A stretch of DNA of 64,000 bases from Hyperoplus lanceolatus (Eukaryota > Chordata > Actinopteri > Uranoscopiformes > Ammodytidae). The stretch lies in contig CM049400.1 in NCBI GenBank assembly GCA_026929865.2, positions 19,098,501-19,162,500 on the forward strand, given 5' to 3'. How positions within the stretch are numbered: position 1 is the stretch's first letter; each line of letters opens with the position of its first letter. Below, in pieces: positions 9,524-62,112 of this stretch. The position numbers were made by a program, and so were the translations under genes. A model generated the notes under the pieces. That model had not been told where the DNA came from. It ran no database searches and worked only from the letters and a program-made list of their open reading frames with translations.

Positions 9524-12500
9524 CTCACTCTACGAGGAATGTTTGAAATGTAGCCTCTAAGAAAGGTGAAGCATTAACTTGAGGAAATAATTGCATAGTT
9601 GACGTGTAAGATTTGGAGTGCACTCATAGGACTTATCTTGCATAAGGGGGCTGCTGATTATGTAAACGTTGCCCATTGAACGGAGAGTGCCGTCTGCATC
9701 TTTACAGCTGGTATTATGCAGTTCAGTGACCTTGACCCTTTTTCCTCTCTGCTGAAGGTGTGAGAACACTGCCTCTGCCTAGCCTATGCTCCACCTCAGC
9801 CCGATAAGTGCTTTCATAAGAAAAGGAAAAATGTGGCTGCAGTAGTGATTTCAGGAAAAAACAGAGGGAGTGCCTTGTTGTAAATGAACTCCCACTCATT
9901 CTCTGAACATTCTGGCCTCTGTTATGTAATCTTCAAGATTCAATAATGCATTTAATTAAGGCTTTGTTGATGCTCAACTGCAGTTTGTTTTTTTTGTTTA
10001 AGAAGTGACGCAGCCTGTGCACAGTCAGGCTTTCATGACAAATTTTAAACTAGTAACCACAAGGGGAGAAAAGTAGTCAGGATAATGTTTTTTCAATTGA
10101 ATTTTCGAAGGTCGTAGAAAGCTCTGCCCTTATACTATTTTTCTTATTTTTGTATGTGTGTCTTTCTGTGGCTCGCTCATCCTTTAAGGGCTTTGCTGTT
10201 TATTGGCTCTTCCTGTTACAATCTGACTTGAACCCATCTCCGTTCCTCTTTCTGTCTTAAGAACCCCTGCCTTTTAAGGCCCGGCCCGATAATCGCCGTC
10301 GTAGAGTCCTGAGGGGGCGGGGACACGAATCTGTTTGGTGTGTGCCGTGAAATCGGTCGTCGTAGATGTCGTTGGGCTTCTTTCAAGCGGGCAGTCTTTC
10401 AGTGGGAGCAATTTGATTTGTGGAGGGCTAGCAAATCAGTGAAGCCCGGAAGTGAGGCGGGTAGCACAAACAGCTAACAACAGTTAGCCATCGTTTTAAT
10501 GTGTTTGTTTGTTTCGTTCAGCGAGTACTCACATGCATCAACCCTTGTTGACTGCTCGACACCATGGTCAACACTCTCTGCTAAAAATGGTGCTCTTTAT
10601 GGTCCATAAATATAAATACGTATTTCTATCTATGTTTATGGTCTAGAGAGCCGTCCCATCATTTCCGGTTTCTGTATTTTTTCAGGCCGCCTGCTGTTAT
10701 GGAGACATTACGTCCCGCGCAAGCGCAGAGCGTACTGAAAGTCAGCAGTCGGCTTGGTGTGTTCTTTGCACTTTTTTGGCCTCGACGGGAAGACTGGAGC
10801 TGCCTGAATCGGCAAACTCCATTTTCGGGTAGTCGGACTGGTGTGTCCTTGCCTTTAGCCTCATCCTCAGCCCCTTACCCATCTCACTTATAATTCATAG
10901 GACTTTGGAGCATAACATAACATTTGGCATTTTAGCTCTTCCTCGCGAGACAAATTGTCACTTTACTAAGATGTCCCTGTCCTCTTGTTGAATTATGTTA
11001 CACAGGCCCTGGCAGTTGTGTAACAATCCCTTTGGTTAACCAATGACTTTAACCTTTTTTCTTTCTTTCTGATAGCGAGTCCCAATGCTGGCAACCATGA
11101 CATGAGCAAATTCGAAATGTGGATCAATCTGCGATTAGCTCTCAGTCAAAACTTCCCCGAAACAGGACAAACATGTTTAATCCAGAACATCTAATACAAA
11201 TCTGCATGTCAAAACTAAAATGAGGTCATGGTCATCATCTGTTACGCAGGAATGTGAACGCTAATCTCCAACTCAGTGGGGCCCTGCAGTGTCATTGGGT
11301 GGTCAGTGGTTGTTCATTAAGCTTTTTCCTTGAAGTAACATGATGTTTCACTGATTTGTTTCTGAACAGAGGTCTGGCTCCTCAGAACAAACCTGAGCTC
11401 CAGAAGGTTCTGGAGAAGAGAAAGAGGGAGCAAGTTCTCAAGGCCCAGAAGGAGGAGCAGGATGCCCACAAGAAGAGGAGCGACCTGGAGATAGAGCTTG
11501 AGAAAAGACAATTGAAACTGGAGCAGGTAAAATGTTTGAAAGAATAAATATAAACAGTCACTTAAGCACATAGACAGATGCACATTGTTACTGTTTGTGA
11601 TCACAAGGGGAAACAAGCAAAAGTACTTATTAACGGATCAGAAATGATGCAAGTAAAGGCTACCAAATTTTTGGGAATTCTAGTTGACGAAAGACTTAAC
11701 TGGTCAAATCACATAGACCTGGTTTGCAAAAGGTCCACGAAGATGATGGGCATATTAAGGAAAGTTTGTCCTTTAATTCATCCTTCTGCCCATTTAACTT
11801 TATACTATAGCTTTTTGTTTCCTTTCCTGAACTACTGTAATCTGGTCTGGGCAGCTTCATATCCCAACCATCTCAAAATTATGTATTATTCAGAAGCAAT
11901 TTTTAAGATTCATCTCACATTCAAACAGATATGCTCCGTCAGCACCACTTTTTATAAATTTTTATATTTTTCCAATTCACAAATTGAATATTTATCACAT
12001 ATGTTTATTCATTCACAAGTTTATTTACAGAAACCAAGATCTCCCGGAAAGCTTTCAGACTTGGTTTACTTATTCATTTAACGTACATTCACATTGCACT
12101 ACACAGAGCAACAATAACAACTTATCTTTACCCTTTTCCCGCACATCACATCATCAATTTAGTATATATTATAGAGGCCCGGCTTTATGGAATGTTTACC
12201 TCCCCTTTTAAGATCCATATCATCCCACTCACTCTTTAAAAAGCAGCCTAAAAAACATATTATCTTTTTGTGAATCTTCTAATCACCTCCTGTCCTCTCC
12301 ATTGCTTTTTTCTTTCTAATTTTTTCATTATCTTTGACATGTATTTATCACATTTTTTCCATCTATTTTTGAGTATTTATGTCTCCTTAATTTCTAGAGT
12401 TTATTTGTTAGCCTGAATATGATTTCATTGTGATTATTGATAGGGGTGGAACTCTGTACGAGCCCATTGGGCTTCGTTCCCTCCTTGCACCATTAATTGT

Positions 12501-27307: not shown

Positions 27308-30300
27308 ATGGCCGCCTGTGGGCTTCTCCGCTCCCTGTCTTCCAACTTTTTTACAGTTTTGCCTTCACTCTCCCGCACGGCACCGCTTTCATCGTTGCGG
27401 CTGGCGTCTCAATCTTATTTCGGAAGAACACTAGCCTCCTCTAGCCGAGTAACAGCAGGTATTCCCATCTGAATGTTGTTTTTTTTAACGTAGCGTGCTA
27501 GCAAAAATGTTGCGATAGCTAGAGGGTCACAGTAGACCAGAAGAAAGGGGCAGGAGACGCAGACTGCGCTGCTGTGTGTCTGTCAGTTTTTTGCCATAAC
27601 AAAATACTTCAAACTCTACTGGTGGAAGTCTCTCTGTGTGTTTTAAGTCTGTTGTGTTGTCTTGCAGCACTTAAATTCACAGACAAGCACGAATGGATCC
27701 GAGTAGAAGACGGCGGGGTTGGGACTGTCGGTATCAGCAACTTTGCGCAAGTACGTTTCCCTTCTCACACAGACATACACAAACGCACGAGCTCTCTCTC
27801 ACACTCGTGCATGCATAAGCCCACACTTAAAAATAAATTCATGCAGCTATGTTTGACCTTGCTGTATTGCTTGCAGGAGGCGCTGGGAGATGTAGTTTAC
27901 TGCGGACTGCCAGAGGTGGGAACTCAGCTGGCTCAGCAGGGTATGATGATAATAATAATAATAATAATAATAATAATTATAATAATACACTTTATTTGTA
28001 AAGCACCTTTTACACACGAAATGCAGCTCAAGTTCTTTGCAATATAGAAATGACGTGCACATAATGCAATTTAAGTTTCCTTTTTTACCACAACAAAAAA
28101 CTGGTGAAGTCGTTGCCAATTAAATTGTTAAATGTACCAGCAAAACGAACAATGACGCGTGCATTTGCTTGATCAACTTACATATGATTGATCTAAATTA
28201 GTCACTATTAGCATTGATCACAGATGTCAGCATTCAGTTAATATTTACTTACCAACTCAAGGGGGGACATTTACAGATAAATATAGTTTAATTTATTCTA
28301 CCTGTTTTAAGAGAATATGTTTCCTTCTTTTTAATGCACTTTTCATTTTAGTTTCGCTAAATTAATGATTCTGTATTATCCGTAACATTTGTGTTGACAA
28401 ACAAGCTGTTGCACATCTCCCTACATCCAAACATGCAAATGGTTGTAATATTCAGTTGGCGTGTCGCACCAAACATATACAGATGTCCTTGTGCCAAAAA
28501 ACACGTACCCTTTTAAGATCAAAGTAACTCCATATATTTGCCTGTTGTGTGTATTAACCGTTGAGATTACCTTAATTTTTTTGGTGTACTTTTATATATT
28601 ATATTTTTCAACATGTTCTCTTACAGACGAGTTTGGAGCTCTGGAAAGTGTAAAAGCAGCCAGTGAGCTCTACTCCCCTTTGACTGGAGAAGTTTTAGAG
28701 GTGAACGAACTACTGGCCGACAAACCTGGTCTGGTCAACAAGTCTTGCTACAAAGACGGTAAGGACACATACATAACGCCGTCCAGTCCACGTAGATCAT
28801 GATGGTATGTGAAGAAGACATTAGAAATGGAAGTGAAATTAAAATTATTTTGGTCCAGGTAAGAAAGCTTAGCAAGTGCAAATTGTAGGAGGATTAGGGC
28901 TGGGTAGCGTTAAATCTTTTTCCGATACCGGTTCCTGAACAATACTTTTTTTTTCGATACCAATTTGATGAAATCAGTGTAAACAACATGAAATGACTCA
29001 TTATTGACATTCCGATACCTTACATTTTTCGATACTCGATGCTATTGAGGCATTTCGGTAGGTACCGAAAAAGTATTGAACTTCGATACCCAGCCCTATG
29101 GATGATATTTGACACTATTGACCACCCTCTGGAGTCTAAGGTTGTTAGTTTAGTTTGTAAACTGATGTCAATCTTTTTTCATCTAAAACTTGTTGCCTCA
29201 GTTTACTTTTCATTGATGTATCTTTGTTTGTGCAGTGTTTGGAGTCAGTACACTACATACAGATAAATGCTTTGCCTATACAGGGTTCCCGTAGATCCTT
29301 AAAAAGTCTTAAATTCATAAATCTAAAAATAAGGCCTTAATTAGCATTAGAAGTCTTAAATCCATCTTTGAAAGGTCATAAAAATTGTAACACATGGTAA
29401 GTAGGATTTTATGACTGTAATTGGTCTCAAATCTTAAAATAATAGGTAACATTTATTTATTTTGAATAAATTGCCGAATAGCGGTAATGTCGCGCAATCA
29501 AAAGAGCGGAACCAACAAAACATTTGTTTGAGGCCGTGACTCAGAGCAGATGCACGTCGTTCAGGTAGCAGTAGCAGCATGTGTAGCAGTGGGCCCGCAT
29601 CACGGGAAAGTTTAAATTCAACGAAATTTGGCTATCCAACAAGGATTTTTCTGCCTGGCTGAAACTGGTACCGGCCTATTTATATCCCCATCTCTTCTCA
29701 ACCGGGACAGCAGTACCAAATCTCCGGGCAATGTTCGGTTGCACGCCTACTAGGGATGAGCCCGAATCCGAACATGTATTCGGAAAAGCATGAATAAAGC
29801 AGGCTTAAAGCTGGGGTGGATAACTTTTTCACTGTAATATTTGGTAAAAATGTCATATTAGCCATTCAGCTATATGTAGGTGACGTGGTCTGAGAATATC
29901 TACGCATCATTTTGCTCTCCCCTGCCTCTGTGTGCCGCCCCCAAAAATTTCCACCGCTCATGTACACTTTGACCAATCAGAGCGAGGCTCCGATTCGCCG
30001 TTCTTATTGGCTGTTGAGACTGTCCATTCACTTTGGAACCGACCTTGTTGCGTCAGTTGCGTGAGCGTTCACGACCCTAGCAGTCTGACAGTTTGGCACT
30101 ACGGCAGCCAACAAACAGCAATGTCTACAACTAAATGTCCTATTTCCCATTTAACAACAACTGCTTACACCGCTAAGAGAGCAAGGATACGAGGAAAGAC
30201 CGGGAAAGACACTAGTTGAAAAGACATTAACACGCATAACTCATTCGGAGGGAGGAGCTACAGCAGGTAGAGGGTGTCAGGGAGGGACCAGAGAGAACAC

Positions 30301-33002: not shown

Positions 33003-33275
33003 TTTATTTATAGAGGTTAATCCCATTGAGATCGGAGACTCTTTTTCAAGGGAGGCATGTTTTCATTTACGTTACCATTCACACACACATCCATACACAG
33101 ATAGCAGGCTAATTATCAACATTCACACGAGGCAAGGAGTGTTAAGTGTCTTGCCCAAGGAGACAACAACCATGACACAAGTGGCAGGGCGGGGTAGACC
33201 ACCAACCCTTCGATCATTGGCCGACCTGAGCTACAGTTGCTCTGGTATGATACCATTGCTCAATGGCCGAGATTT
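33003..33275 (-). repeat. tRNA-derived SINE-like repeat between gcsh and the cryptochrome
   Basis: Read on the minus strand, a tRNA-like head (GTAGCTCAGGTCGGCCAATG, GGGTTGGTGGTC) is followed by TCTCCTTGGGCAAGACACTT and then the block shared with 16925-17055. It lies just beyond the cryptochrome stop. Its left edge contains TTTATT at 33003-33008, which on the minus strand is AATAAA and could serve as that gene's polyA signal. Confidence 0.6.
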
Positions 33276-33401: not shown

Positions 33402-36400
33402 TCACCTGAGGGAGGTGCTCGCCCCACCAGGTACTATAGAAACCCTGTCCTTGGCTGTGGGAGTTCGCCTGGCCCTGCCCCGTGGTGCAGCGGGCTGAGG
33501 GAGTCCCTCCATTCTGCGATAATCGCTCTCCAGCCTCTCCTTTCGCTGGGTTCCCTCATACAGCACGCTGGCAGTGAAGTCTCTCTCATTGAAGAAGGCG
33601 ATGGTCTCATCCCTCTTGCGGCTCATGTATCCTTTCAGAACAGCGTTGTAAGGGTTTGATGCGGCGTCTGCATCTGGATCTTCCTGCTGGTGTTTAAATT
33701 CCATACGTGTGATAACTGGCAACAGGAATTGCTCCCCTTCTTTCACCACACCCCCCTCCCTGTGTGATGAGCCCAGAGCCTCAGAGACCAGGCGCGGGGG
33801 CAGAGGCACCATGTCACAGCCAGAGCGCTTGTCCACGTACTGGTCAAACTCTTTCCGCACCAGAGCTACATCTTGCAGAGAGTGATTCCTCCTCTCCTCC
33901 AGGTCTGTAACTATTCGCTCAGGATATGTCTGGCCAAACACCACACCTAAACAATGAGGATTGCAAGGAAATTAGATTTTTATGGAACAGGAACTGTATA
34001 CTGTAGGTAGCATTTTTTTTCTTGTGAAAAGTAAAACATATGAGACAGTAAATATGTCTTAGGATCATAATTTTCTCACCAGCACGTCGAAGCATGGACG
34101 CGGGACATTTCCAAGGCTTGTGAATGAGCTCATCTGGCAAATCTGCAAGTTCAGGACACCATTTTCTAACATAGCTGCCTTTAGGGTCACAGGTCATTGC
34201 TGCATCGACGGGGTGCATGACAAAATTCCAGTGATCAAGACCACACATGCCTCCATTCTGCCACATCATGGCATCTATGGCAACATCTGCATCCACCAGG
34301 GTGTCCTGAACACAGTCAGGAAGTAGTTCTTATTAGTGTGTGTGTGCGTGCGAGTGTGTGTCACAACTACGTGAGTCTATTCCCTGCATGCTTGCACGTC
34401 TCACCTGGAACCAGCGATAGCCTTCTTGCCAGGGCAGGTAGAGGTATGCTATGAGAAAAGACGCCACCACGTGTCTCATGTAGTTGTTCATCCAGCCCGT
34501 CAGCCACAGCTGCCTCATGGCTGCGTCCACCAGAGGGTAGCCTGTACGACCTCTCTGCCAGGCCTTCAGGTGGCTACGGTCACTGCTCCACCGCAGAGCC
34601 TGTAAACACCAAAGGATAAGCAATGCTTTGTATTAAATGCAGTTCTTCATTGTGAGATTAAGCGGTTAATTATTGAGGAATAAAAAGCTATTTCAACTCA
34701 ACATATTTATTTATTTGCATTTATGTGGTAAACCTCCAACAAGAAACTTTAAAATGTTTATGAAACAGCCCAATTTTTCCTCCATTAATAATTAATGCCC
34801 TGCAACAGCAAACAAGGCCATCAGCAAAAACAACGCTACTCATATAGTTTTTATTTATGCCTATTATACGGGTCCGATTTCCGAGGGACTGAGACTAAAC
34901 GATTTACAGCAGGCAGGAACATCCTGTTTCTCCCAAAGGTACTAAATCAAAGTTTACTTTGCTTTATTGTCATATTACCATAATTAATCTTACGTAGTCA
35001 CATATAAATAGATAACCTCATCGCAATGCATCCTGCAGTCTCTCTTTCACTCGCTTCCCAAGCAAATGCACACAGTGCCGGCAAGAGTATGCTAGGATCC
35101 ATAAACACTGAACATTTCTCGCAGCTACTTTAATGTGCTATCAAGATGTCAGCTGCAAATTTCTACCTTGTATGGAGGCCTGAGGGATTCCCAGGGGAGG
35201 TCTGGAAACAACGTCAGCTGCCAGTAAGACAAATCTCTCCATGCCAGTTTGCGTTGAAACTTTGGGGGTCGACATCGAGCCCCTTTGGCATCCCACAAAA
35301 GCCACCGTGAGCTCAGCTGACCAAAGTGAAGGTATGGAGACAGACTGCTGGTATTTGGGGCATCCGCCCTGCCTGACTCTTTTTCATATCTGTAGACACC
35401 TAGGAGGCACAGGGAGAATAATGATCAATGTCTTACCTCATAACATTCCACCAAGGACGGTGTAGGATTTGTTTAAAATGTGAACGCAAGGTGTCTCACC
35501 ATCATGAAGAAAGGCCTCCAGCCGTGCATGTGCTCCCTCTTCACTGAAATCCCAGGATTTCCGAATGTTAGCCGCCCAATCAATCTGAATGCCAAAATGA
35601 ACACAAGAAATTGTTGAGGACTGACTTCACAATCTAATCTCATCCATACACTGGGCTGTAGACTCTTTTATAAACAGTCTATGACTGTAGCTCGATTCTA
35701 TGGGACTGCTCTGCTGTGGTTACTGACCGTTGTGCCATCCTTCCTGCGGGGCATGCGTGCCAGGTCCAACATATCAAGAGAGACACAACAAGGCCATTGT
35801 GCCGGTTTGGGGAGGGATGTAGGAGGGTCCAGGGGAAGCCCTAACCCGGAACCTGGGTTCTGCCTACAGCAGCTCATGAAGTGAGACACTGAACCTATTC
35901 CTAAATGAAGTACAGAAAACCCAAGATATCACTATAAAGTTCTCATATTAACCACATGTTTGTAAACAAGCTCAGTACACCAAATGAATATGTTTGCAAC
36001 TGACCTCTTAGTCCCACACCCTCCGTGCTGACAGTGTAAGGGTCTCTGAGGCAGTATGAGTGGAACATCTTGAATTCAACGCCGTCTTTCTGCAGGGCCG
36101 AAACCACCACGTCATCCCTCTCCTTCAGCCACGGCTCATAGAGGGCATTAGCCAAGACTGTTCTGGCCCCGGTCTCCTTCACTAGCTTCCTGAGGCTACG
36201 TAGAGAAGATCCCAGCTCATTCCCCTCTCCACTTGCTTTGAGGAACAATATACGACTGCCAATGTGCTCCAGAGATGAACAGAAACAAGACAGAGCTTGA
36301 TGGAGCCAGTATTTACCTGTTTGAAAGAAAATATGTGACAACAAGTCAGCAGCCAATTAATATGTTTTAGTTCTGAATGAAAAGTTACTTGTTGTCAGTT

Positions 36401-38613
36401 TTGACACAGATGAATCACTGATTCCTCCGTCAACTTACAAGCTCCCCCCATAGCCACCGTAATCCCAGGTCCCTCCTCCTCTTCAGGGCTCCAGATGAAT
36501 ATAGGGATGACAGGTGCACCAACCTCCAATGAGCCAATGAGAGCAGGGTTGTCACAAAGTCGCAAGTCCCTCCTGAACCACAGCAGCACGGGTTGCGGAG
36601 CTGATGGAGAACAGGGCAAACCAACAACATGTTGGCCAGCACCTTTACGCCGCTGTCGCCTGTTCTTTGAGCGTTTAGGTTTTTCTGATTGGTTCAAATC
36701 TGCTTTATTCATCAATTGGTCACCTTCCTCGTGCTTGTAAAATGAGCCTGACAGTCTGGAGGCACACACAGTTGGACTCGTCTGTAGCATCACCTTGTTA
36801 TATTTGAGAACATGTGTGCTTCCCTGAATCTCAGTCTCTCCAAGTTTCCTTGGTGGGCTCACCTTGGCCCAGGGTCCAGTTTGCGGTGAGTCTCTCCTGC
36901 CAACTACATCTGCTAGTAGCCGTGTGTGGCCGCTTCCCTGATATACCGAGGTCAGTTGAAAACAGTTTCTCTGATTCGGTCCCTCTTCAGGTCGCTGGAG
37001 TCGGGAATCTTGGCTGATGGTTGACAGATGGGGATCTTTGATTTCCAGTAGAGAGAGAGACAATGCAAGTTCCAGTTCATCGTCTTCTGTCTACAGTTTG
37101 ATTAGGACAGTCAATTATTATCACTGTAAAAATTACTGTTTACAGTCTCGAATGAAAGATGTGCAAAAAGTAACAACAATCAAGTATGACTATGACAAAA
37201 ATTATGCAAAAATATTTTGTGGTCCCTTATTTTTTTTATTGATAATCAAGATTGCAGTTGGGGGGAATGATAGATTACTAAGTGTTAATGCTTCTTTTGT
37301 TAAGTTTTCTGAATAAGCTGCACTCAATGATTTAAGACAATTTATTTTTACAATAGGCTAAATAACTACAGAGGTAGGCTATCAGGTGTCATGAATTAGT
37401 CCAAAGTGTAACTTAAAATTTCTAAATGGAGCCATGATGTTAAGAGGCCTGACAGCCTCTTCTTACAGCCAAACAGGGGTTTCCACTAATTTTAACTGAT
37501 TAGGCCTATAGCTCTTTTCAGGAGGCCTGTAGCGGTTTATATTTGATAGACATACTGTATCTCTGTTCCACAAAACTTACACATTTTCTATTCGTGTTAG
37601 CACTAGTGTTGATAATTAATACAGCCTAAAAATAGCCTCATAAAGTTTGTTTGTAATAATATTAAGGCATAATGACAAGTAATTATTTTCTAATGTAACA
37701 ACACACTTATGAGTGTAACATTAAATAGGCTACTTAAAAATAAATCTTATTTTAAATGTTATCCTTAGTGCACATATTAACTTTCACAAATACCACGAGA
37801 ACAGGCTAGCTTTGCCTGGCAGCAGGCAGTCAAGTAAAATAAAGGGAGTGACTAATGAATATTTGCATATTCAGCAAGCCAAGATGGTACTATCACTCAA
37901 AAAAGAAGCTATACCATAAAAGGCTAAAATGCCACCGAAATTGATATTTAAATCTAACAGGTGACCAGAAAGAGAAGATGAAAAGGGAGGCGCGAGCTCC
38001 AATTCGGTTGCTTAATTACCTAGATAATGTTTCGCAAACAAATAGCCACAGGGACCTATAAAGAAAGTATCTAAGTATAGTAGCCTATAGGCTAGCCAGG
38101 ACAACTTATTAGCCAAGACAACATCACTCAAGCCAGAACAACTTCACTCAAGTTTAGCTAGTCGAAACTCGGTAGGTAGCCTATAAGCAATACAGATTGA
38201 CATTTGCCTTTTCTGTTATTTGCTTTCATATTATTTTGTCTCTCGTAGGCTATTTCTTTATTTCTCTCTTATCCTTTTTTGTTGTTCTTAGAAATGTTTT
38301 GCATGTAGGTTTTGAACTCCTTTGTAACCCTTGTAGTGCTACAACGTAATAACATTTTCCCCAAACGCGCACTGACCTTAAAGAAATATTCCTTGTAGAT
38401 GGATGTGAGGATGCAGTGCAGGGGATTGCTGGCCTCGGATAGGGGCTGAATGAGGATCGGGAACTGTGACCGGGTCTCCTGGTGCCCCAGGACTGACACA
38501 CACATCGCAAAGAACCCTTCTGGATCCTCTCGACCCACCAGAACGTCGCTTAACATCTTCCTCACCAAGGCTTTACTGTCCTCGGCAGCAGCAGCTGATG
38601 GAGACATCTTCAA
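33402..38613 (-). CDS. Plant-like cryptochrome with N-terminal UIM extension
   Basis: Nine exons (38613-38377, 37090-36439, 36316-36005, 35900-35728, 35584-35500, 35399-35167, 34599-34405, 34305-34080, 33946-33402) join in frame to 885 residues. Residues 1-79 are an unrecognised domain. Residues 82-95 are a perfect ubiquitin-interacting motif (DDELELALSLSLLE). A basic NLS-like stretch (KPKRSKNRRQRRKG) is near 216-229. The photolyase/cryptochrome core starts near 245 (PVLLWFRRDLRLCDNPAL, FIWSPEEEEGP). Its FAD half shows TSSLSPYLHFGQLSSR, GRTGYPLVDAAMRQLWLTGW, DTLVDADVAIDAMMWQ and GLDHWNFVMHP. A roughly 150-residue tail (NPYNAVLKGYMSRKRDE) follows. The IWSPEEE and TSSLSPYLHFGQLSSR wording resembles plant cryptochromes and animal L-Cry, not CRY1/2, (6-4) photolyase or CRY-DASH. 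Light sensing or repair activity is inferred. It is tail to tail with gcsh. Confidence 0.9.
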
Positions 38614-38840
38614 GTGAAAGGTGACGATAAATTACAGCCACAAAATGTGTTTAGACTGCTTTTAAATTGTCGGCTAGTAGGTCGAGTTATCCGCTCCAAG
38701 TAGGCTACTGAACATACCCTCACTGATTACCAAATAACAGCTGAGTTTTAGTTACACAAGCTATGTCGCTGTGTTTCGTAACCTAAAAAGCTAAGGTTTT
38801 GTAACGGGAAGATATTACCACTAGGGGGCGTACAAGTCTA
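38614..38840 (-). promoter_or_regulatory. Cryptochrome promoter region with D-box-like elements
   Basis: The 5' flank contains GTTTCGTAAC (38773-38782) and GTTTTGTAAC (38796-38805), each one or two bases from the D-box (TTAYGTAA) that drives light induction of teleost clock and repair genes. There is no TATA box. Function is inferred from the motif and the gene class only. Confidence 0.35.
38818..38830 (+). promoter_or_regulatory. CTCF-like site, plus orientation
   Basis: CCACTAGGGGGCG is an exact match to the 13-base CTCF core. It lies about 200 bp upstream of the cryptochrome ATG, at the border with the long gene desert. Confidence 0.55.
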
Positions 38841-42955
<4,115 letters not shown>

Positions 42956-50601: not shown

Positions 50602-53600
50602 CTAAGCTCTGTCTCTCTCCCCTGCCCGTGCAGACAACTCAGCCTGCTCCCTCTCTGCAGAGTCAGAGCTCAGGCTCCTGGCCCTCTTCTCCTTGGCTCT
50701 GGCATTCTGGAACCATACCTGCAATCAAAATAAAAGAATTCTTATGAATATGCTATTACTTTGAAAATACTTAATTGTTCTGGACTTATTCTTTTTAATC
50801 TTTAATAAATGCAAACCAAACTGAATTTAATTTTTTATAAAGATGTAAATGATTTACCTGCACCACACGGTGAGGCAGTCCCAACTCCTGGCCTAGTGCC
50901 TCACACTCATGTCGATTGGGTGTACGGTGGCTCCTGTAGAAGTCTCTGAGCTGAAGTACTTGGAAGTGGCTCATCTGTGTCCTTTGGCGCTGATGGTGGT
51001 GCTGTTGCAGAGATTTTGTCTCACCCCAATCTATGCTTGGACCCCCAGATCCCTCAGGACTAGGAGACCCTTGATCAGCAATACTGGAACCCTCCTCACA
51101 TGTGTACTCCTCATCATCTTCCTCATAGTCATCTTCCTCCTCTACATTGTTCAGATCAGTGGTTAAGGACAAAGAGGTCCCAGGTGGCTTCACAGTTAAC
51201 TCTGTGTTGCTGATGACATAACCATGGTTTGGGATGGGGTTAGAGGAGATAGATGGGCCTGGTCTGTCCATGGCAGATGATATCGCCATCAAAAGCTGCC
51301 CATTGGATCCATTACTCATCGATAAGTTGTAGCCTGCTCTTTCAGCCTCCGCCCAGTGGCGTGACCTCATATGGGCATCCAAAGCACTCTTTACCTTGAA
51401 GAGAGCCCTGCAGAATGGGCAGCGTAGGTGGTTAAAACCCAAGTTGAAACTGGATCCTGGCCCCATTGACCGGAACTGCCCTTTTCTCTCTCTGGCTCGT
51501 GTATTCTGAAACCAGACCTGTGAATGAAAGAGCAGTATGATTTAAAAATACAAAGACGAGACACACAACAGCATTAGGCCATGCTTTCTGGCCATTACTT
51601 AAAAACAATTTATTTATTTATTAAACAACACATATTTTGACTCAGCAACCATTCTTTAGGTACCTGAACCACACGTCTTGAGAGGCCTACATCACGTGCA
51701 ATGCTTTCCAGGACTCCTCTGGTGGGGTTAGAGTCCAAGCTGTAGCGCTGATACAACACTTCAAGCTGTTCTGGGGTGATGGTGGTTCTCTGACGCTTAT
51801 CCCTTCGGTGCTCCTCCTCAATATCTCTACTGCTCCTTTGGCCTTCAAAACTGGTGTCTGACATAAGCTTTGAATTTTGGTTTATAGGTGTCAGGGAGCT
51901 TTGGGAGAGGCTGGTGAGTGTGTTACTTGAGTGATCAGAGAGTGTGTTCTTAATTTGTAAGCTGTTTAAGTGTGACATCATGGAATGTGTGGGATTAGGG
52001 TGCATCTGTGACATGGCACCTGAAATCATTTGGCTGGCCATCAGGGTGTGGTTTGGATGGAGCATCATGTAAGGCATGGTTCGGTCTGTGAAGCTAGAGT
52101 GGAGAAATTGGACCTGGGACTGAGCTGCCAGGAGATGCCTGGTCTGATGCTCTTGCCACAGCTGGAATGACGGTAAGGATACTGGGCAGATACTGCACTG
52201 GAACTGAGCCTGGCTTTGGGGTTGGAGATGGTTTTTTGGCTGGGTCTCAGTAGATAAGCCTTTGGTGGCCTCAGGCAGTGGAAGGTGGCTTGTTTCAGAC
52301 ACTGGAGCAGTTGGGAGGCTAGGTAATTTATCAGCAGGCATTTCAACAACTCGATCAGTAGTAGGGCTATGTGTAAGTTCCTGGCTGGGATGGGCCATAG
52401 ACGGAATTTTGGGAACTTTCTTTTGTGAAGTTTCTGAAGTACTTTCCGGCTGCAGATTGGGCTCAGGTTGTGGAGAGGAACCTATTTTAATAGCATGAGA
52501 AATGTCTTTGCACTGGATATCTGCCTCTGAAATTCCATTTTGTGTTTGAACAAGAGCTGGGCTCTTGTTAGCAAGAAAAGAGATGGGTTTAGCGTCTTCT
52601 TTTCTAGTAACAGGTGTTGGTTCACCTTTGGCTGTTGAAGGCTCACTTTCTGTGCAATGAGAAAAAGAATCAGAGAAAGGTGAATCAGGGTGGGAGTAAT
52701 ACTCATAAGTCAGATCCATGGAGTTTTCATTCTGAGTTTCACTTTGTCCTTCATCCCTACAGCTTTTATCCTCATTATCATCATCATTGTTGTAGTAGCT
52801 ATTTCTCTGTCTGTGAATGTTTTCAAGCTGGCTCTCCTCTAACACATCCTCTGTCCCCCAGTCTTGATTTTTTCGGGCTCTCTGTCTGGCATTTTGGAAC
52901 CATACCACAATGATTCTGTTAGGGAGAGACAACAGAGCAGACAACCTGTCATATTCTTCTTCTCTGGGGTAGGGAGTTGCCTCAAACACCCCCTGCAGGG
53001 TCTCCAGCTGTTGCTCTGTGAAGCGAGTTCTGGAAGAGCGTCTACCCTTATGAGGCTCTCCTATCTGGAAATCTGTTGTCTGGGGCTGTGGGGAGGAGTT
53101 GGCATGAAGGACCAGGGACGGTGAACATGGGGAAAGGGTCAAAGGCTGGTTTGGTGTTACATCCTCTCTGGAGTCCTCCAGTGCTATGGTGGGGGGGTTG
53201 TTAAAATTGTAAGGGGAATCCTTATCTCGCTGGCGCTCCTTAAATAGGGTGTTGCGAAACCAGTGTTTCATGACTTTATGAGGCAGACCAGAAAGAGCAG
53301 ACATCCTGTTCATCTCTTCATCACTGGGGAGGCTGTTGATATCAAAGTGTTTCCTCAGAACAGTCAGTTGCTCCTCAGAGATTCGTGTTCGGGTTCTCTT
53401 ACCTTGCTGTTCAAGTACTGTTGGACTGACTTGGGGTTGCTGTCCTGTTTGGATGGGGCTGGGTTGGGAAGGTTGACCCATCAGTGGAGAGTTGAGTTGT
53501 GGAGGCTGACCTTGCAAAGCTGGGCTGAGTTGGGGTTGCTCGGCTTGTAAAGCTGGACTAAGCTGCGACTGTTGCCCAAGGAGCGCTTGGTTGAGTTGAT

Positions 53601-56600
53601 ATTGGTAGAGTTTTGCCAAATCAGGGTTCACACTTGAGTCTAACCAAGGTTGGGGCTGTAGAGCTAAGGACTGCATGACAACTGGAGGGAGGAGAGGTAG
53701 TTCCATGGGAAAGGGAATGGGGGGTAGGGGAAGTTTAGGTAAAGTCAGAGCTGTGGGAAGCTGTGGCAAGGAAAGAGGAAGCATAGACATTTTAGGAAAG
53801 GGAAGAGATATGGATGTAGCTTTGGATGTTGTAGCTGTAGCAGATGTGCTTGAGATGGATGCCTCTTGTTGTTGAGAAGGAAATGGATAAGGTGAAGGAG
53901 CAGCTAGTGTTAGGTCTGTAGCTTGAGTACATGTTTTTGCTAAAGGGTCTGAAACTGAAGGTACAGGTGAGGGTGAAAGGGTTCTAACTTGAGGCTTATC
54001 TGGTTCTGGCGCTGGTTCCGAGTCTGAGGAAGGGGCTGCAGTTTGGGTGCAACTAGTTAAATTCTCCCCATGGTTAAGCTGTGTGAGGGGGTACGTCTGG
54101 TCATACTGCACCCTGTATTCTCTGGAATACCTCTCGAGTGCAGCAGTGGGAAACAGCATTCTGTGAATGTACTCCTGGTGGCTTTTTAAAATCAAGGCAT
54201 CTGAAAAAAACTTGCCACAGTCGCCACACTTTTCTCCTCTTCCACAGCATTGTTTCTCTTTGTTTGCCGATTCCTCATTTTTTATCTGCATTGGCTCTTG
54301 TGGCAAGCTCTCTATCTCTCCATTGCCTTCTATTACTTTGATATCCTTGTTACAGCCTTCCAACTGGACATCCTGTAGTCTACTTAACTTTTCTTTTGCT
54401 TCATCTGAACGCACCTCCATTGTGTCAATATCAGAGCATTCCTGTTTATCTGGTATCATATGAGTTGATATCTGATGTCTTTGTCTACTTTGTATATACT
54501 GCAGTGCCACCTCAAAGCCATAGCTCTGCAGCAGGGCTCTTAGAGGCTCCCCATTCACAGCAGCATAGGGCACTCTGGGAGGTGGACACTGCAGCCCAAG
54601 AAGATTTGATGAGGAGGAATCTCTTTCCTCCTTCTGACTCTCATTTTTTATAGTAGGAAAAGGCATTTCTTCCTTTTCTTCCTCAATATTATATTTCCCG
54701 TGTTGTCGTTCTGTCTGGTTGATGGAGGATCCACTGCAGCCAGCTTCATTGTTGGCTTCACACGGCACATTATCCTTTGGTTGGCTATCAGCTGAGATTG
54801 GACTGTGTTTCTGTGTTTGTGTCACATCCACTTGAGGCTGAGACTCCCCTTTAGCTTCTGCCTTAACTTGTTTTTTTGAGATGGACTCCGCAGATACTAA
54901 CTGACTAACCTCTTGGCTCTTAACAGCAAACTCTGGGTTAAGGTTCATGTCTGACAAGTAAAAGGGTAAAAGAAGTTGCTGTTGCAGAGCAAGCAGGTTT
55001 TCTGGTGCAAGAGAGAATTGTTGTTGAAGGAACTGTTCTGGCCCTAATGGAAAATGCTGTAGTAACTGGGACTGAAGCAGAGCTGTGTGTTGTTGTAATT
55101 GAGCTTGGGCCTGTGCCTGAGCATGGGCTAACTGCTGCTGTTGTATAAGCATTAGCTGGTTTCTTGAGGCTAGAAGCTCTGCCACTCTCTTTTTAGCCTG
55201 CTGGCTGTCGGTTGGGTTGGAGAAGGTTGGCTGGGCCTCTGCTGCTGAGCCTTGGTTTAATAGTGAAGTGTTCAAAGAGCTTCCTACAGCCGGCCTCTTG
55301 AGGAAAGGCAAACTCTTGGAAGTTGAGTCTTCTCTGGAGTTAGCAACCTGATTTGCAGTAGAGTGTGCTGAGCCTGCAGCAGCTACACCAGATGCTGGGC
55401 TCTGTGGACCCGGGTTCTGGGCAGCACGAGCTCTGGTCTGGTGAAGTACAGAGCGAAGATGTATGTCCAGTGTGGAACTCTGGCTATAGCCCACTCCACA
55501 CAATCGACAGCGGTAGGGCCTCGGATCTGGGCCACGGGGAGCCTCAGTGGTAGAAGTACCTGTGCCAGAGTCCTGAAGGGCTCGCCTGGCCCGGTGAAGA
55601 TGGGACACAGAATTATAGTGGACCAGAAGAATGGTTTTTTGGGTAAAAGATTCAGAGCATATGGTGCATTTATAGGGCCTGGTTGGGTCTAGATATCGGT
55701 CCATTGTGGGGTTTGAGCTCTTTTTGACAAGTGAGCTGGAACTAAGTTCTGATATGATTTCCTCATTTAGCCCTTTCAATGCCTCAGTTAAATCCTCTTT
55801 GCTTCCATCAACTTCACCAACCATTTCCTTCTCTTTTGTATCTCCTTGTAGTTCCTCTTTTCCCTCCATGTCCAGTGTGTCTTCCTCTATCTCTTCATCC
55901 TCACCCTCTCCTGCTTCTTGACCCACTTGAGGAGATAAACTAAAATCTTGTTGAACTGAACTCTTATTATGCTTCATGTATTGCACAGTTTGAGGTGGTA
56001 AGAGTGCATTCTGCCCCTGTGGGTTGTCCAGCTGTGAATGTGTGTTCTGCATGTGTCTCTGCAGGGCCTCCTGACTGCGGCATTGTCTAGAACAGAGGGG
56101 GCACTCTGTCGCCGCCCTCATGGCATGGTACTGCATATGCAGCTGGAGCTTCTCCTGAGTGGGGAAGGCCAGGCTGCACCTGCTGCAACGAAACCTGTAA
56201 CCATGGCGATCAGGAAGGAGAGCGGGCTCGCTAGCTGGGGAGGTGGGCGGGGAAGAGGGGGAGATCTGAGTTGGGGACTGAGGAGTCAGTCTGCCATTGG
56301 AAGGGTGAGCGCTGTTGTCTTCTAGGGGTGGGGTGAGTAGAGCTGTGACATCTTTGGGTGCGGCTACATCTCCCTCAGTGTTCTCCATGGAAATTCCTGC
56401 AAAATAGATGAAAAATTGTGATTGGGAACTAAAAATTATTTTACAATGACATTTGGCTATCCACACAATGTGTTTTGAATGACAATAACAGTTTGGTAAT
56501 AATGATCTTTTATGAATTACGATGATTGAAATATTTGAATCAGTTTTATCATGCATTTCCTGCCAACCTTTGTTTTCCTGTGAATCAACTAGGGCAAAGG

Positions 56601-59600
56601 ATTCAGCAGTGTGGGAACAATTTGCATTGTTACTCTTGGTATTTTTATTTTGTTCATCGGTGTGTGCCTCTATCAGTGGTTCGACGTTCAGCTGAGGGTG
56701 CAGTTGTTCCATGGATAGGGTGACCTAGAAGTAAAAAAAATGTGAGGGTCAGTCAGTTTTTTTGTTTGTTTTTTATTGACAGTTCCGTCTAAAAGAAAAA
56801 TGAGATACAAGCATATTTTATTATCCAACATTCTGAATAAAACATGTTTAATTGTAGAACATATGAGCATGCACAAATAATGATATATTAACATGGAGTG
56901 CCTGCACACCCTGTCCTAGTATCATAAACATAAACAATGTGAAAATGTAAGTCTATCGTTAGATATTGCACCTACCCTCAAAGCAATATAGACAGCAAGG
57001 CATCCATTTGGTAATAAATGTATATGGTTGAGATATGTGGGTCTGCCCATCAGCCCCTACGACACTCTCCAACATGCCCCAAGGGTTTAATAAAACTTTA
57101 CTGAGCTGAATAATGAATTTATTTAAAATCATTCTTCATATAGAAAACCTCCATCTTCACAGCTTCAAGCACTGAGAGCAAATACTATACTATGCAGCTA
57201 GCTACCCCAAGGAAAGGACGGACAGCTAAAGATGAGATTTACATGACAAGAGTTTTCTCTGCGTAACGGCTTCATAAGAGAGAAAGGGAAGAACAACCAT
57301 GCACACACACTGCAGAAAAAACTGAAGGTCAGGCTTAATCTAGAGAGCGTAATTGGAAAGCAAGGTACATAATGGCCATCATCACCTCAGTCTGAATTAA
57401 TGAACCTCAATTACTATCGGAAAGAGTGAGGGAGGGGAAGGACGGGAGGACGATGATGGGGGGTTAGGGTTGCAGAATATGAAAAAGGGAGTAGGCAGAA
57501 GGAGGGATGAAGTATGGGGCAATGAACAAAAAAGAGTGAGTTAGGGAGGGGTAGCGCATACGAAATCGAGAGAGAGCTCGGGAGAGGTGGAAAGGGAGGG
57601 GCAGGGACAGAGATTGCTGAATAGGAATGATAGGAGTAGCTGGAGGGGGGAGAAAGGGACAGCAGAGGGGAGAGAGGGTGAAAAGCAGTCAGTCAAGTGG
57701 AGGCGAAGAGCGCAAGAGACAAAGGCCACTTAGCATACGGGCCAGGGAGATGGAGGATGGTGATGTGGATAGATGACCAGTCTTTGTTAGTTGGAGAAAC
57801 ACAGTAAAAAGCATGGGGGCCCCTTTTTTAGCTTGACTGCACTTCTGGTAATAGAGGGCTACTTAAACATGCATTATAGAAAGACTGGCTTTTCCCTCAC
57901 TCAGTCAAACCCTCTCTTCTCCACTCTAGAAGACGCACATCCACATACACACAGAATGCACGGCTGCATCAAAGATGATAGCGGGGAGCTACTTAAACAT
58001 GCATTAAAAAAGCGCTGCCTTTCTCTCTGGTGCCTTCTTAATGGAATTGTCTCCCTACATTTCACTCGGCCCCAACCCCCAACGCTTTGCCTTCTCATTT
58101 TCTTTTGCTTCCTGACAAACGCAAATACAACGAATACACACTTGCATACACTTACTGTGCTGACGAGCTTGTCTACACAGTCCTGTGCCACACTGTGCAC
58201 ATGTGTAAGATGCTGTTGAAGCTGTATGTATGGGAGTTTTCCCTGGCACAAAGGGCACTGGACAGTCTAAAAGAGTGCAGGGGAAAAATGGTTACTAAAG
58301 TATTGAATTAGAAGGTCGCAAGAGAGCATTAATGTGCGTGAGACTTTTCGATTACACATGCAACTGCCATATGCTCTAATGTTAAACAGCATTTATTGTA
58401 TCTGTTGTTAAATTTTATATTTCACATGGACATGCTTAAATTATTAAAACATATCTCAACTGCTCACCTGCTGGTTCTCATTTTGCTGGTGTATTCTGGG
58501 ACGTTTGGTTGAGCTGGAGTTTTCTTCACATCCAGAAGATGGGCGCTTGACTGAGGGCAATGACTCCCTCTTTTCTCTTTCCTCCCCCCTGGTTTCTTCT
58601 TCAAGTAAAGATGAAATTAAAAATATTAGTGATAATAACTGTGGATGTAATATATTATTATACTATCATTTGAGTTAACTATAATATGTTGCAGAATATG
58701 TGGAATTGTTTTGCATGTAGAAGCAGCCATACCTGTCTCGTCAGACACATGCTTTGCCCCCAAGTTACATATGTCTTTGGTTGTGTCCAAAGGACCAGTT
58801 GTGGTCTCACTTGAAGTTTCCATATCCTCACTGGACTCTCCTAAGACAAAACAAATAATTGTGTTAAACAAACATTGTGCTTCAAAAAATATATTCTCAG
58901 AAAAATATCAGGTTGATTGTAGGTTATATTACTCTCTAGATAGCATTATTCAAAAAGTCCAATGTCTTTGGTCCAGACTTCATTCTGTTTGTTTGCTTCC
59001 ATACACTATTGATCAAGTATTGATTCTCCATTAAACTCTCCTCAGAGGTGGAGTAGAGGTAATATGGACTTACAACACATGAGTTCACCTCAATAAGTCT
59101 TAATCAGAGCATAGACAAATCACAGGATACACTTCATTCACAACTGTGAACGAAACTACTAATTTTATTTAAATTTAGGGTTTTATCTTGAAGGGAGCGC
59201 AAACTAGTGACTAACCTCCACCTCCCCAATTCTTGTACAAGGGATTTCGTATTGGTCCATTGATTAGCAGGTGCTAGTTAGCCATTGTCAAGGGTCATTG
59301 GGGATATAACAAGGATATGTATCGACTAATCAATTTACTTGATCAATATCACAGCCACAGCCATTATTCTCTTTCTCACTCTTTTCATCTTAATCTTGTG
59401 TCGGCTCTCTGAAGTCAGCAAGCTCATGAAACAGGAAATCACATACACCCACACAGTTAATATTCTCACCTGTATCACCATCAGAGCTTTTCCTGATGGT
59501 AAAAATGGCTGCCAGCTCCTCTCCGCCCATTGGCTGCAGCTGTAGTAGCCCTTCCCTCTGCTGATGGGTTAGCGTTTGACTGTGTTTCAGTACTTGGAGC

Positions 59601-62112
59601 TTAGAAGAGGAGGAGTGGTTGCATAGGAGACAATGGAACAGCCACGAACCTCCATCAACCTCCCCATCATACTGCTGCAGGAACTAAAAGTAATGAGGTA
59701 GAACGGAGTAAAAGCAGGAAAATGATTATGGTTGAAAATGGTTTATAAATCTAGTCTGATTGTCATGAATAGCTAAATACATTTTGTTTCAAATGCTGCT
59801 TGCAGGTCCTAAGAGAAAAGAGTTATTGATTAAAAGTGTACTGACTCGGTAAACCCGGACGCTGGCCTTGTGGTGTGAACTGAGGGAATGTCCGCGTAGC
59901 TTCTCCAAACTGCTGGTCACGTAGTCACAAAGGTTGCACCTCAGCTGGACCGGGTTGCCCTTGGCAATAATGGCAGCCCCTTCTTGACCCCTGTCTCCAC
60001 CCTCCTGAAGATGAGCGGCTAGCTGGTAGCGGGTGCGGTGTCTGTCAGTCTGGCAGTGCAAGGAGAAGTTAGCCCTTAGTGGCGTGGTGTAGCCGCACAG
60101 CCTGCAGTGACAGCCACCGGCAACCAGTGAGCACCATTCAGACTGGGGCAGAGAACGAGCAGTGTTCAGGTGCTGCTCCAAGGACTCTAAGCTGTCGGAT
60201 GAAAAGCAGGAGCACACAAGACATTGAAACAGGCCCTGGGAGAGGGGTCCAGTGGGGGACATGGATGGGGCTGGTGGGGGAGACGGAGAGGGTGAGGGGG
60301 AAGGAGTCAGTGTAGACCCAAGGGTGACTGGCTGTTCTGCAACTTGTTGACTGGTCAATCGCATGTTCAAGGAGAGCTCGGCACCTAAAACAGAGAGAAA
60401 CCTTGTAAGATTTGTTTTTTACATGTAAATGTTGGAATGGCAGCGTGAGTTGTGATGCATGGCTCACCTGTGTTTTGTAGGTGTTTAAGCTGCGGGGCGA
60501 GGCTCCTGCAGTGAGACAGATAGTAACCTCTCTGGAGCCTTAGCATGTTATGTGTGTGTTTCTCGCTGGTGGTGTGTATGCGCAGGTTGCGGGCAATGCT
60601 GGTCTCATAGTCGCACACATCACACCGCCACCGCTTACCGTGAGAGGGAGAGTGTGTAGGTGGCGGGAGCGTGGCTGGCGGGGTAGCAGGTGTGGGAATA
60701 GAGTGTGGGAGCTTGTATGCAGGCTCTTCCACCACGTGACCATTGGAGGAGCTGCTATCGTTGGTATTTTGAGAGGTGGGCATGTGAGCATTCGAGTGTC
60801 CCCCATTTTGAACATTATTAAGGTGTTTATCTGACTGCATGTGTATGCTGAGGTTGCCTTTCGATGAGGTAGCATAGTCGCAGACCTCACAGCGGTAGGG
60901 CTTGTAGCCACAGGCGTATGTTTCACCCCGGGCCAAGCGAGGATGGGGTTTCCCCGAACTGCAATATCCACACACATCTCGTGTTGCACCGCCGCACACA
61001 CACTTTCCCCTGGAGGCGCCACACACACACTGGCTTTCCGTCTCTGGGTGTTTCTCTTTCATGTGGACTTGCAGTGTATGCTGAGACTTATAGTGCCAGT
61101 TACACTTAGGGCATTTCAGTGTCTTGCAGGAATTGCGTGAGTGCATTATGGTCATGTGACTAGTCAGTGAATTCGGAGAGAGGTCTTGGTTGAGGTTTTT
61201 GAGGACAGCTTCTTTCTGTTCTCCTTCTTTGTCTCTCTCATCCTCCACCTCTATGTCTAGCTGGCTATCATTTGGTTCTGGAGCTTTGGCACCATCTCCA
61301 TTGGAAATGGAAGAGTGAGGAACCCCTGCCGGCCCGTCATCCTCAGCAGGTGTACGAGCAGGCTCAGTGCCTGCCAATGGAAAAGCCAGAGTTGACTTCT
61401 GGGATTTAAAGCTCTGAGGAAACCCAGAAATCCAGCCCTGATCCCCCGTAATGTCTTTTACCCCTGTCTCGCTCGGCAGGGCGGAAGAGGAGGACGGACA
61501 AGTGAAGTGCTTTGGAGAGGTGGAAAGAAAAGGGGAGGGCTTTGGAGAGGCTGCTGTTTTGCTGTCGAGTGTGCCACTGGCCTTCGCAGTGCTGGAAGAA
61601 GAGCTGTGCTGGCTCTGAGGTAATAAAGAACATTTGGATTTGGTTTGGCTTTGGTTTGAGATGGCCTCCTCCTCCTCTTCCGTCTCCTCCTCTCCACTGC
61701 TAACGGCTGCCGGGAGGCCCCCTGTAACTGACGCCTCTCCCACACCTCCGTGCACCTCCCTTTCTTCATTCCTTTGCCCTGACAAATATCCCTCCCCGAA
61801 GTCCTCCTCCATCCCCTGCTTTTGACACGCTCCGTTCTCCTGTGAACGTTGGCCTCCTTCTGTCTGCTGCTCACCTCCCCGGGTCTCTTCTCTAGCCTGG
61901 GACCCCTCTGCACCCCCCTCCTCCTGCTGCTGAGGCAGGGTCAGGGGCTCTTTGGCAGGGGCCACGGCTGAGGTATGAGAGGATGACCCCTGCTCTGGAT
62001 TGACCGCCAGGGTCAGGAGAGGAAGAGATAAAGCCTGGGGACTGAGGTCAGCATCTCTCTCCTCTCCTCCCCCTCCATCCCCCCCTCCTCCTCCTCCCTC
62101 ACCGCTGTCCAT
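50602..62112 (-). CDS. zfhx2: Zinc finger homeobox (ZFHX) transcription factor, probably ZFHX2
   Basis: Ten coding exons (62112-60468, 60384-59846, 59683-59470, 58840-58733, 58598-58468, 58266-58156, 56724-56568, 56396-51664, 51517-50858, 50718-50602) stay in frame and give about 2,804 residues. C2H2 fingers include [59 protein letters not shown], and about 12 more through [20 protein letters not shown]. Four homeodomains start near residues 1968 ([12 protein letters not shown]), 2085 ([14 protein letters not shown]), 2499 ([13 protein letters not shown]) and 2722 (QRTQMSHFQ); the last two are split at VVQ-VWFQN. A Gln-rich stretch ([13 protein letters not shown]) and acidic runs separate them. 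ZFHX proteins are large nuclear regulators of neuronal and muscle differentiation. Compact size and a short N-terminus favour zfhx2; linkage to gcsh (as ZFHX3 on human 16q) leaves zfhx3-type possible. The protein stops 26 residues after homeodomain 4. Confidence 0.85.
57280..58155. other. ZFHX intron with short direct repeat
   Basis: A 19-bp sequence GCTACTTAAACATGCATTA occurs at 57858-57876 and 57988-58006, in similar following context. Purine-rich simple sequence spans 57420-57720. A stretch at 57340-57420 containing GAGCGTAATTGGAAAGC and GAATTAATGAACCTCAATTA looks like a possible regulatory element. Confidence 0.4.

Follow-up and report, generated by a model that had tools for sequence, protein, structure and literature searches.

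Can a vertebrate cryptochrome carry its own ubiquitin receptor and, if it does, is the protein a photoreceptor or a DNA-repair enzyme? The question is raised by a 64,000-nucleotide stretch of the genome of the fish Hyperoplus lanceolatus (contig CM049400.1, positions 19,098,501 to 19,162,500; hereafter the window), in which an original prediction, made from the letters alone, had placed a plant-like cryptochrome with a ubiquitin-interacting motif (UIM) at the start of its second exon. We found that this gene, predicted on the minus strand at 38607..33402 with nine coding exons and 883 amino acids free of internal stops, is almost certainly an orthologue of CRY6, a PCRY-like cryptochrome, judging by a signature motif, the order of its parts and the published orthologues. 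The identity as CRY6 and a ubiquitin-binding role for the UIM, taken jointly and leaving light gating aside, are very likely right.

The original prediction also held that no vertebrate cryptochrome of this architecture had been described. That view has to be given up: the architecture is already known, having been published, together with a polyubiquitin pull-down, for Xenopus tropicalis CRY6, and for the Takifugu and zebrafish proteins (Okano et al. 2023, PMC11520951). What the window adds is one further intact fish CRY6 orthologue in which all UIM consensus positions are kept, and evidence from single residues that favours a flavin photoreceptor over a repair enzyme.

Identity of the gene and its ubiquitin-interacting motif

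Pfam profiles placed DNA_photolyase at residues 245–393 (1.5e-27) and FAD_binding_7 at residues 532–727 (3.2e-68) of the 883-residue protein. Within this superfamily, the PCRY-like group is defined by the motifs VGLR (pl1), WRDLAY (pl2) and MWQNxG (pl3) and has been reported in bony fishes of Neopterygii and in frogs; pl3 occurred in 100 of 103 PCRY-like and none of 2144 other sequences, and pl2 had a frequency of 83% (Deppisch et al. 2022, PMC9498864). The fish protein contains pl3 exactly, as MWQNGG (residues 641–646), and pl1 exactly (residues 395–398), although the bare 4-mer VGLR was also present in 2 of the 80 listed frames of bacterial relatives, a set drawn from the matches listed (at least 80) and not a survey. 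At the pl2 place it has WRDLSY, five of six letters. The description of a plant-like cryptochrome was well founded, in that the gene belongs to a group named plant-CRY-like in the literature. A term search of the text of PMC9498864 gave no UIM and no N-terminal extension, in which the subfamily as presented there differs from the fish protein.

The four primers printed for Takifugu rubripes Cry6 (Okano et al. 2017, PMC5394683) also matched the window’s coding sequence, at 19/22, 18/19, 16/20 and 20/23 bases, whereas 200 shuffles of each primer, taken in the same orientation, reached at most 14–16; two of the matches (18/19 and 20/23) span the predicted exon 4/5 and exon 5/6 junctions. Takifugu CRY6 was described as nearer to the CRYs of plants than to the rest of the animal CRYs, and its mRNA was raised in blue light (PMC5394683). 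A plant-like Cry had already been named in zebrafish (PMC4564169). The Cry6 of an earlier paper (2015, PMC4350181) shares the name alone, being a Drosophila-type CRY of invertebrates and a different gene, and invites confusion.

Exon 2 of the fish gene begins TEDDELELALSLSLLE, and residues 79–93 fill all of the UIM consensus positions, [DE]3-x-hydrophobic-x-x-A-x-x-x-S-x-x-[DE], the pattern given in the original prediction. Across the window's six frames, 127,996 codons in all, this strict pattern occurred once, and 1 of 20,000 shuffles of the CRY6 protein matched it. The claim that exon 2 opens with a motif filling every consensus position stands. Set beside the frog peptide (TDLELAIALSLQE), the fish one (DELELALSLSLLE) has the same UIM register, with 8 of 13 residues identical, and it retains the ELAxxLxxxE core common to the Rabex5 inverted UIM. 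The double-sided inverted UIM (DI-UIM) of the frog pulls down K48-linked polyubiquitin, and a shuffled version does so less (PMC11520951). According to the text of that paper, the CRY6 proteins of Takifugu and zebrafish have kept the UIMs, the opposite of the absence from other fish that the original prediction had named as evidence against itself. By analogy, from the consensus positions common to the two peptides, the UIM helix of fish CRY6 would be likely to bind ubiquitin as well.

Some results weigh against a ubiquitin receptor. With the full-length protein as query, the Pfam UIM profile (PF02809) was not listed at E ≤ 10; the exon-2 piece alone reached 11.6 bits (E 0.27) against a gathering cut-off of 21, so that the UIM profile comparison proposed along with the motif came out negative. 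By eye, Ser88 of the fish stands at the central Ala of the frog’s offset second UIM, and because of this replacement the second UIM face, and with it two-sided binding, may be weaker here. The low profile score would also suit a Leu-rich acidic amphipathic helix with some other role, for instance in contacts with a corepressor or partner helix, and on that stretch the score of the plant EAR repression motif was about as low, 8.5 bits for a cut-off of 28.9. Only two solved chains matched the stretch at E ≤ 10, neither significantly: nucleophosmin (E 0.25) and AN1-type zinc finger protein 2B (E 0.29), the latter presumably a UIM protein. Such a helix of other function is nevertheless improbable, given that every consensus position is filled, a match that shuffling so rarely reproduced, and that the UIM of the frog orthologue, in the same register, binds polyubiquitin better than its shuffled peptide. 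The ubiquitin reading made in the original prediction is probably right.

The frog protein has been described as a long N-terminal extension with a predicted tetrahelical (KaiA/RbsU-like) domain, a DI-UIM and a nuclear and nucleolar localization signal (NLS/NoLS), followed by the photolyase homology region (PHR; PMC11520951). The N-terminal extension, UIM, basic stretch, PHR and C-terminal extension have an equal order in the fish. The frog UIM lies at about residues 83–97, as counted from the printed peptide, and that of the fish at 79–93; the trimmed PHR alignment of the frog begins at Asp244 and the first PHR strand of the fish at residue 244, two positions whose columns need not coincide. 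Besides the divergence within the UIM, the proteins differ in length, with 883 amino acids in the fish and frog residues named in the text up to 862.

Flavin pocket and relatives of CRY6

Among PDB chains, the best match to the fish protein was 4u63 (PhrA, a bacterial class III CPD (cyclobutane pyrimidine dimer) photolyase) with 297 bits, followed by plant CRYs with 239–247 and by all others listed with at most 161. Chains named DASH reached 90–93 bits, and 1np7, a bacterial DASH protein, 138 bits. In a four-way alignment, D638 at the flavin-N5 position aligned with Asp396 of AtCRY1, where PhrA has Asn, and W566, W619 and W642 were invariant, at the places where the electron-transfer triad is expected from E. 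coli photolyase and AtCRY1. Lys535 and His605 of the fish occupy the columns of the repair Glu and Met of PhrA, which correspond to E274 and M345 in E. coli. Together, the Asp at flavin N5, the kept Trp triad and the replaced CPD-repair residues speak for a photoreceptor rather than a repair enzyme. Chain 6lz3, presumably from maize, had Ala at the W619 column in the PDB comparison, a change that was probably engineered, and it was left out of the four-way alignment and of the 39-row tree described below.

The fish protein differs from plant CRYs in its N-terminal extension and in its tail, where neither of the plant CRY tail motifs, DQQVPSAV and STAES, was found as an exact string. A further difference lies in its signature, DAMMWQNGG (34275–34249, minus strand, residues 638–646), which has a two-residue gap directly after the proximal Trp, reading WQ--NGG where plant CRYs and PhrA have WQYISG/WQWVAG. 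This gap may reshape the flavin pocket.

Could the protein instead be a CPD class III-type DNA photolyase with a ubiquitin-binding helix, tying repair to ubiquitin? Its nearest solved relative is PhrA, with 38% identity compared with 35% for AtCRY1 and 34% for AtCRY2 over the PHR, and Takifugu Cry6 (TrCry6) was classed with light-responsive repair genes (PMC5394683). A repair enzyme is nonetheless very improbable, since the Glu and Met needed for repair have given way to Lys and His and the N5 residue is Asp rather than Asn; among the 80 bacterial relatives listed, the N5 residue was readable in 73, all with Asn, and 7 gave no pattern match.

We prefer the photoreceptor, and its kinship with plant CRYs was addressed with trees. 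Earlier studies have put CRY6 close to plant CRY (PMC11520951, PMC5394683 and PMC9498864), and a horizontal-transfer view of the PCRY-like group has been put forward (PMC9498864). Of algal and animal PCRY-like proteins, our own trees contained the fish one. The 39-row tree comprised three plant CRYs, PhrA, the fish and 34 of the 80 bacterial loci; the 61-row tree took in 55 of the 80, including L004, which had been left out of the smaller one. L004, with an end branch of 10 in the larger tree, is one of three frames (with L038 and L070) that have no photolyase motif and are probably misread, leaving 77 of the 80 with recognisable motifs. A bacterial PCRY-like protein was sought among these 80 listed frames, and MWQNxG was found in none.

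The trees do not settle the tie to plant CRYs: neither firmly places CRY6, the fish row being a long branch; the highest PHR identity of the fish row in the 39-row set was to a bacterial photolyase, L003 (44% over 462 columns); and the free search of the 39-row tree did not join fish to plant CRY, with a bootstrap that had not settled. Yet constraining fish and plant CRY to group together improved the 39-row tree by 2.47 log units, with a p value of 0.60 in the approximately unbiased test (p-AU), so kinship with plant CRY is allowed and not shown. The phylogeny that the original prediction had proposed, run here with plant CRYs, PhrA and bacterial loci, therefore permits the plant-CRY grouping and does not resolve it.

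The N-terminal extension and the layout of the gene

A single open frame of 231 codons contains both the UIM and the first photolyase strand without a break, which bears out the statement that the motif is joined in frame to the photolyase/cryptochrome core. When 498-nucleotide stretches were drawn 200,000 times from local background DNA, 85 were open in the frame chosen, and the exon-2 N-terminal stretch had a codon-usage score (0.131) above those of all 85. The frame of exon 1 says little, as 231-nucleotide background stretches were open in 500 of 20,770 draws; its codon-usage score was 0.103 bits per codon, and 95% of the 500 open background segments scored below 0.110. The scoring, for which the window's ZFHX-like frames served as training set, gave values below zero for sure PHR stretches (the PHR part of exon 2, exon 3 and exon 8) and therefore decides little about exons 1 and 2. 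That exons 1 and 2 belong to a different gene, or that the N-terminal part of exon 2 is an intron open by chance, might be argued from a gene model known here from genomic DNA alone, from the exon 1 score lying within the background bound and from the behaviour of the score on sure PHR stretches, but is hardly credible beside the single 231-codon frame, the score of the exon-2 N-terminal stretch and the equal order of N-terminal parts in a cloned cDNA of Xenopus CRY6 (PMC11520951).

Exon 1 had no Pfam match at E ≤ 10, and the N-terminal domain compared with PDB sequences gave nothing better than E 0.32. A harmonin-homology-like helical domain was considered for the N terminus; it found no support and we do not claim it.

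All eight predicted introns have GT–AG ends. The start codon lies at 38607, with a TAA in the same frame upstream at 38634–38632; the stop codon is at 33404–33402, and AATAAA occurs 3′ of it at 33008 and 32569. The gene limits first proposed were therefore close, a few units off: the start given as 38613 and the length of 885 amino acids become 38607 and 883. The features of the gene are collected in Table 1.

Table 1. Parts of the predicted CRY6 gene, in window positions, from the N terminus to the C terminus of the protein
Feature	Positions	Strand	Content
Coding exon 1	38377..38607	-	Residues 1–77, opening the CRY N-terminal extension, where a tetrahelical domain has been predicted in Xenopus CRY6 (PMC11520951)
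Coding exon 2	36439..37090	-	From residue 78 into codon 295 (its first base); carries the UIM, a linker, an NLS-like basic stretch and the first part of the photolyase domain
Ubiquitin-interacting motif EDDELELALSLSLLE	37043..37087	-	Residues 79–93 (E79–E93), putative DI-UIM of CRY6, from consensus match and likeness to the Xenopus peptide
Basic stretch KPKRSKNRRQRRK	36644..36682	-	Residues 214–226; near the place of the Xenopus CRY6 NLS/NoLS (residues 212–221; PMC11520951)
Coding exon 3	36005..36316	-	Contains PCRY-like motif pl1, VGLR (36017..36006)
Coding exon 4	35728..35900	-	Exon 4/5 junction spanned by Takifugu Cry6 primer (18/19 bases)
Coding exon 5	35500..35584	-	Exon 5/6 junction spanned by Takifugu Cry6 primer (20/23 bases)
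Coding exon 6	35167..35399	-	Contains WRDLSY (35241..35224; one change from pl2, WRDLAY); K535 at the CPD-photolyase repair-Glu place
Coding exon 7	34405..34599	-	Trp-triad W566 and W619; H605 at the CPD-photolyase repair-Met place
Coding exon 8	34080..34305	-	D638 (flavin-N5 position), W642 and PCRY-like motif pl3, MWQNGG (34266..34249)
Coding exon 9 and stop	33402..33946	-	End of the PHR, then C-terminal extension (residues 728–883)

Possible function and surroundings of the gene

The likeliest role of CRY6 is that of a blue-light receptor that binds flavin. The UIM helix in its N-terminal extension would bind ubiquitin chains and so tether ubiquitinated proteins in the cytoplasm or nucleolus. 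The flavin would be photoreduced through the Trp triad, with the plant-type Asp at N5 favouring a signalling radical state, a step that the residues make somewhat more probable than its absence. Whether light then controls the UIM, or what becomes of its ubiquitinated partner, is a more tentative matter, and we infer such control as a possibility that is rather on the unlikely side.

The abstract of PMC11520951 suggests light-dependent protein degradation, so the idea of light-controlled ubiquitin handling has been in print since 2023. We hypothesize, as an addition to that suggestion, a light-gated ubiquitin receptor in which the photoreduced Asp638/Trp-triad flavin centre would rearrange the extensions and expose or hide the UIM helix, and blue light would decide which ubiquitinated proteins are held or handed over to degradation; both this receptor and gating via its flavin centre are speculative, and we hold them to be doubtful. 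Against the preferred reading, a blue-light receptor with a ubiquitin-binding helix, stand two points from the frog: full-length GFP–XtCRY6 was mostly cytoplasmic, and chromophore binding and photosensitivity of CRY6 were left for future work (PMC11520951). With a photoreceptor fold and a ubiquitin-binding helix in a single chain, a light-controlled vertebrate ubiquitin receptor is a reasonable hypothesis for CRY6.

Nine D-box-like sites (consensus TTAYRTAA, with at most one mismatch) lie within the kilobase that precedes the cry6 ATG (38608–39608). Dinucleotide shuffles had a mean of 3.07 such sites and reached nine in 1 of 500, and nine were reached in 5 of 252 one-kb windows, three of which overlap the cry6 upstream region. 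The D-box was one of two motifs tried, and the CACGTG E-box had no occurrence in the same 1 kb. The D-box-like sites would be in keeping with the published light response of Takifugu Cry6 (PMC5394683).

Rfam and ARAGORN gave nothing in the window. A 171-codon frame at 11566–12081 (plus strand) resembled, by eye, the C-terminal part of a non-long-terminal-repeat retrotransposon reverse transcriptase, with no Pfam match at 0.001. To the left of cry6, at 27523–28044 on the plus strand, a gene for the glycine cleavage H protein begins; the GCV_H profile matched there at 5.5e-10 over its first 29 of 122 positions. To its right, at 50798–62106 on the minus strand, is a large ZFHX3-type zinc-finger homeobox gene (homeodomains 7.2e-37, zf-C2H2_ZFHX3 2.4e-11). 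The order GCSH, cry6, ZFHX3-like is a possible synteny anchor.

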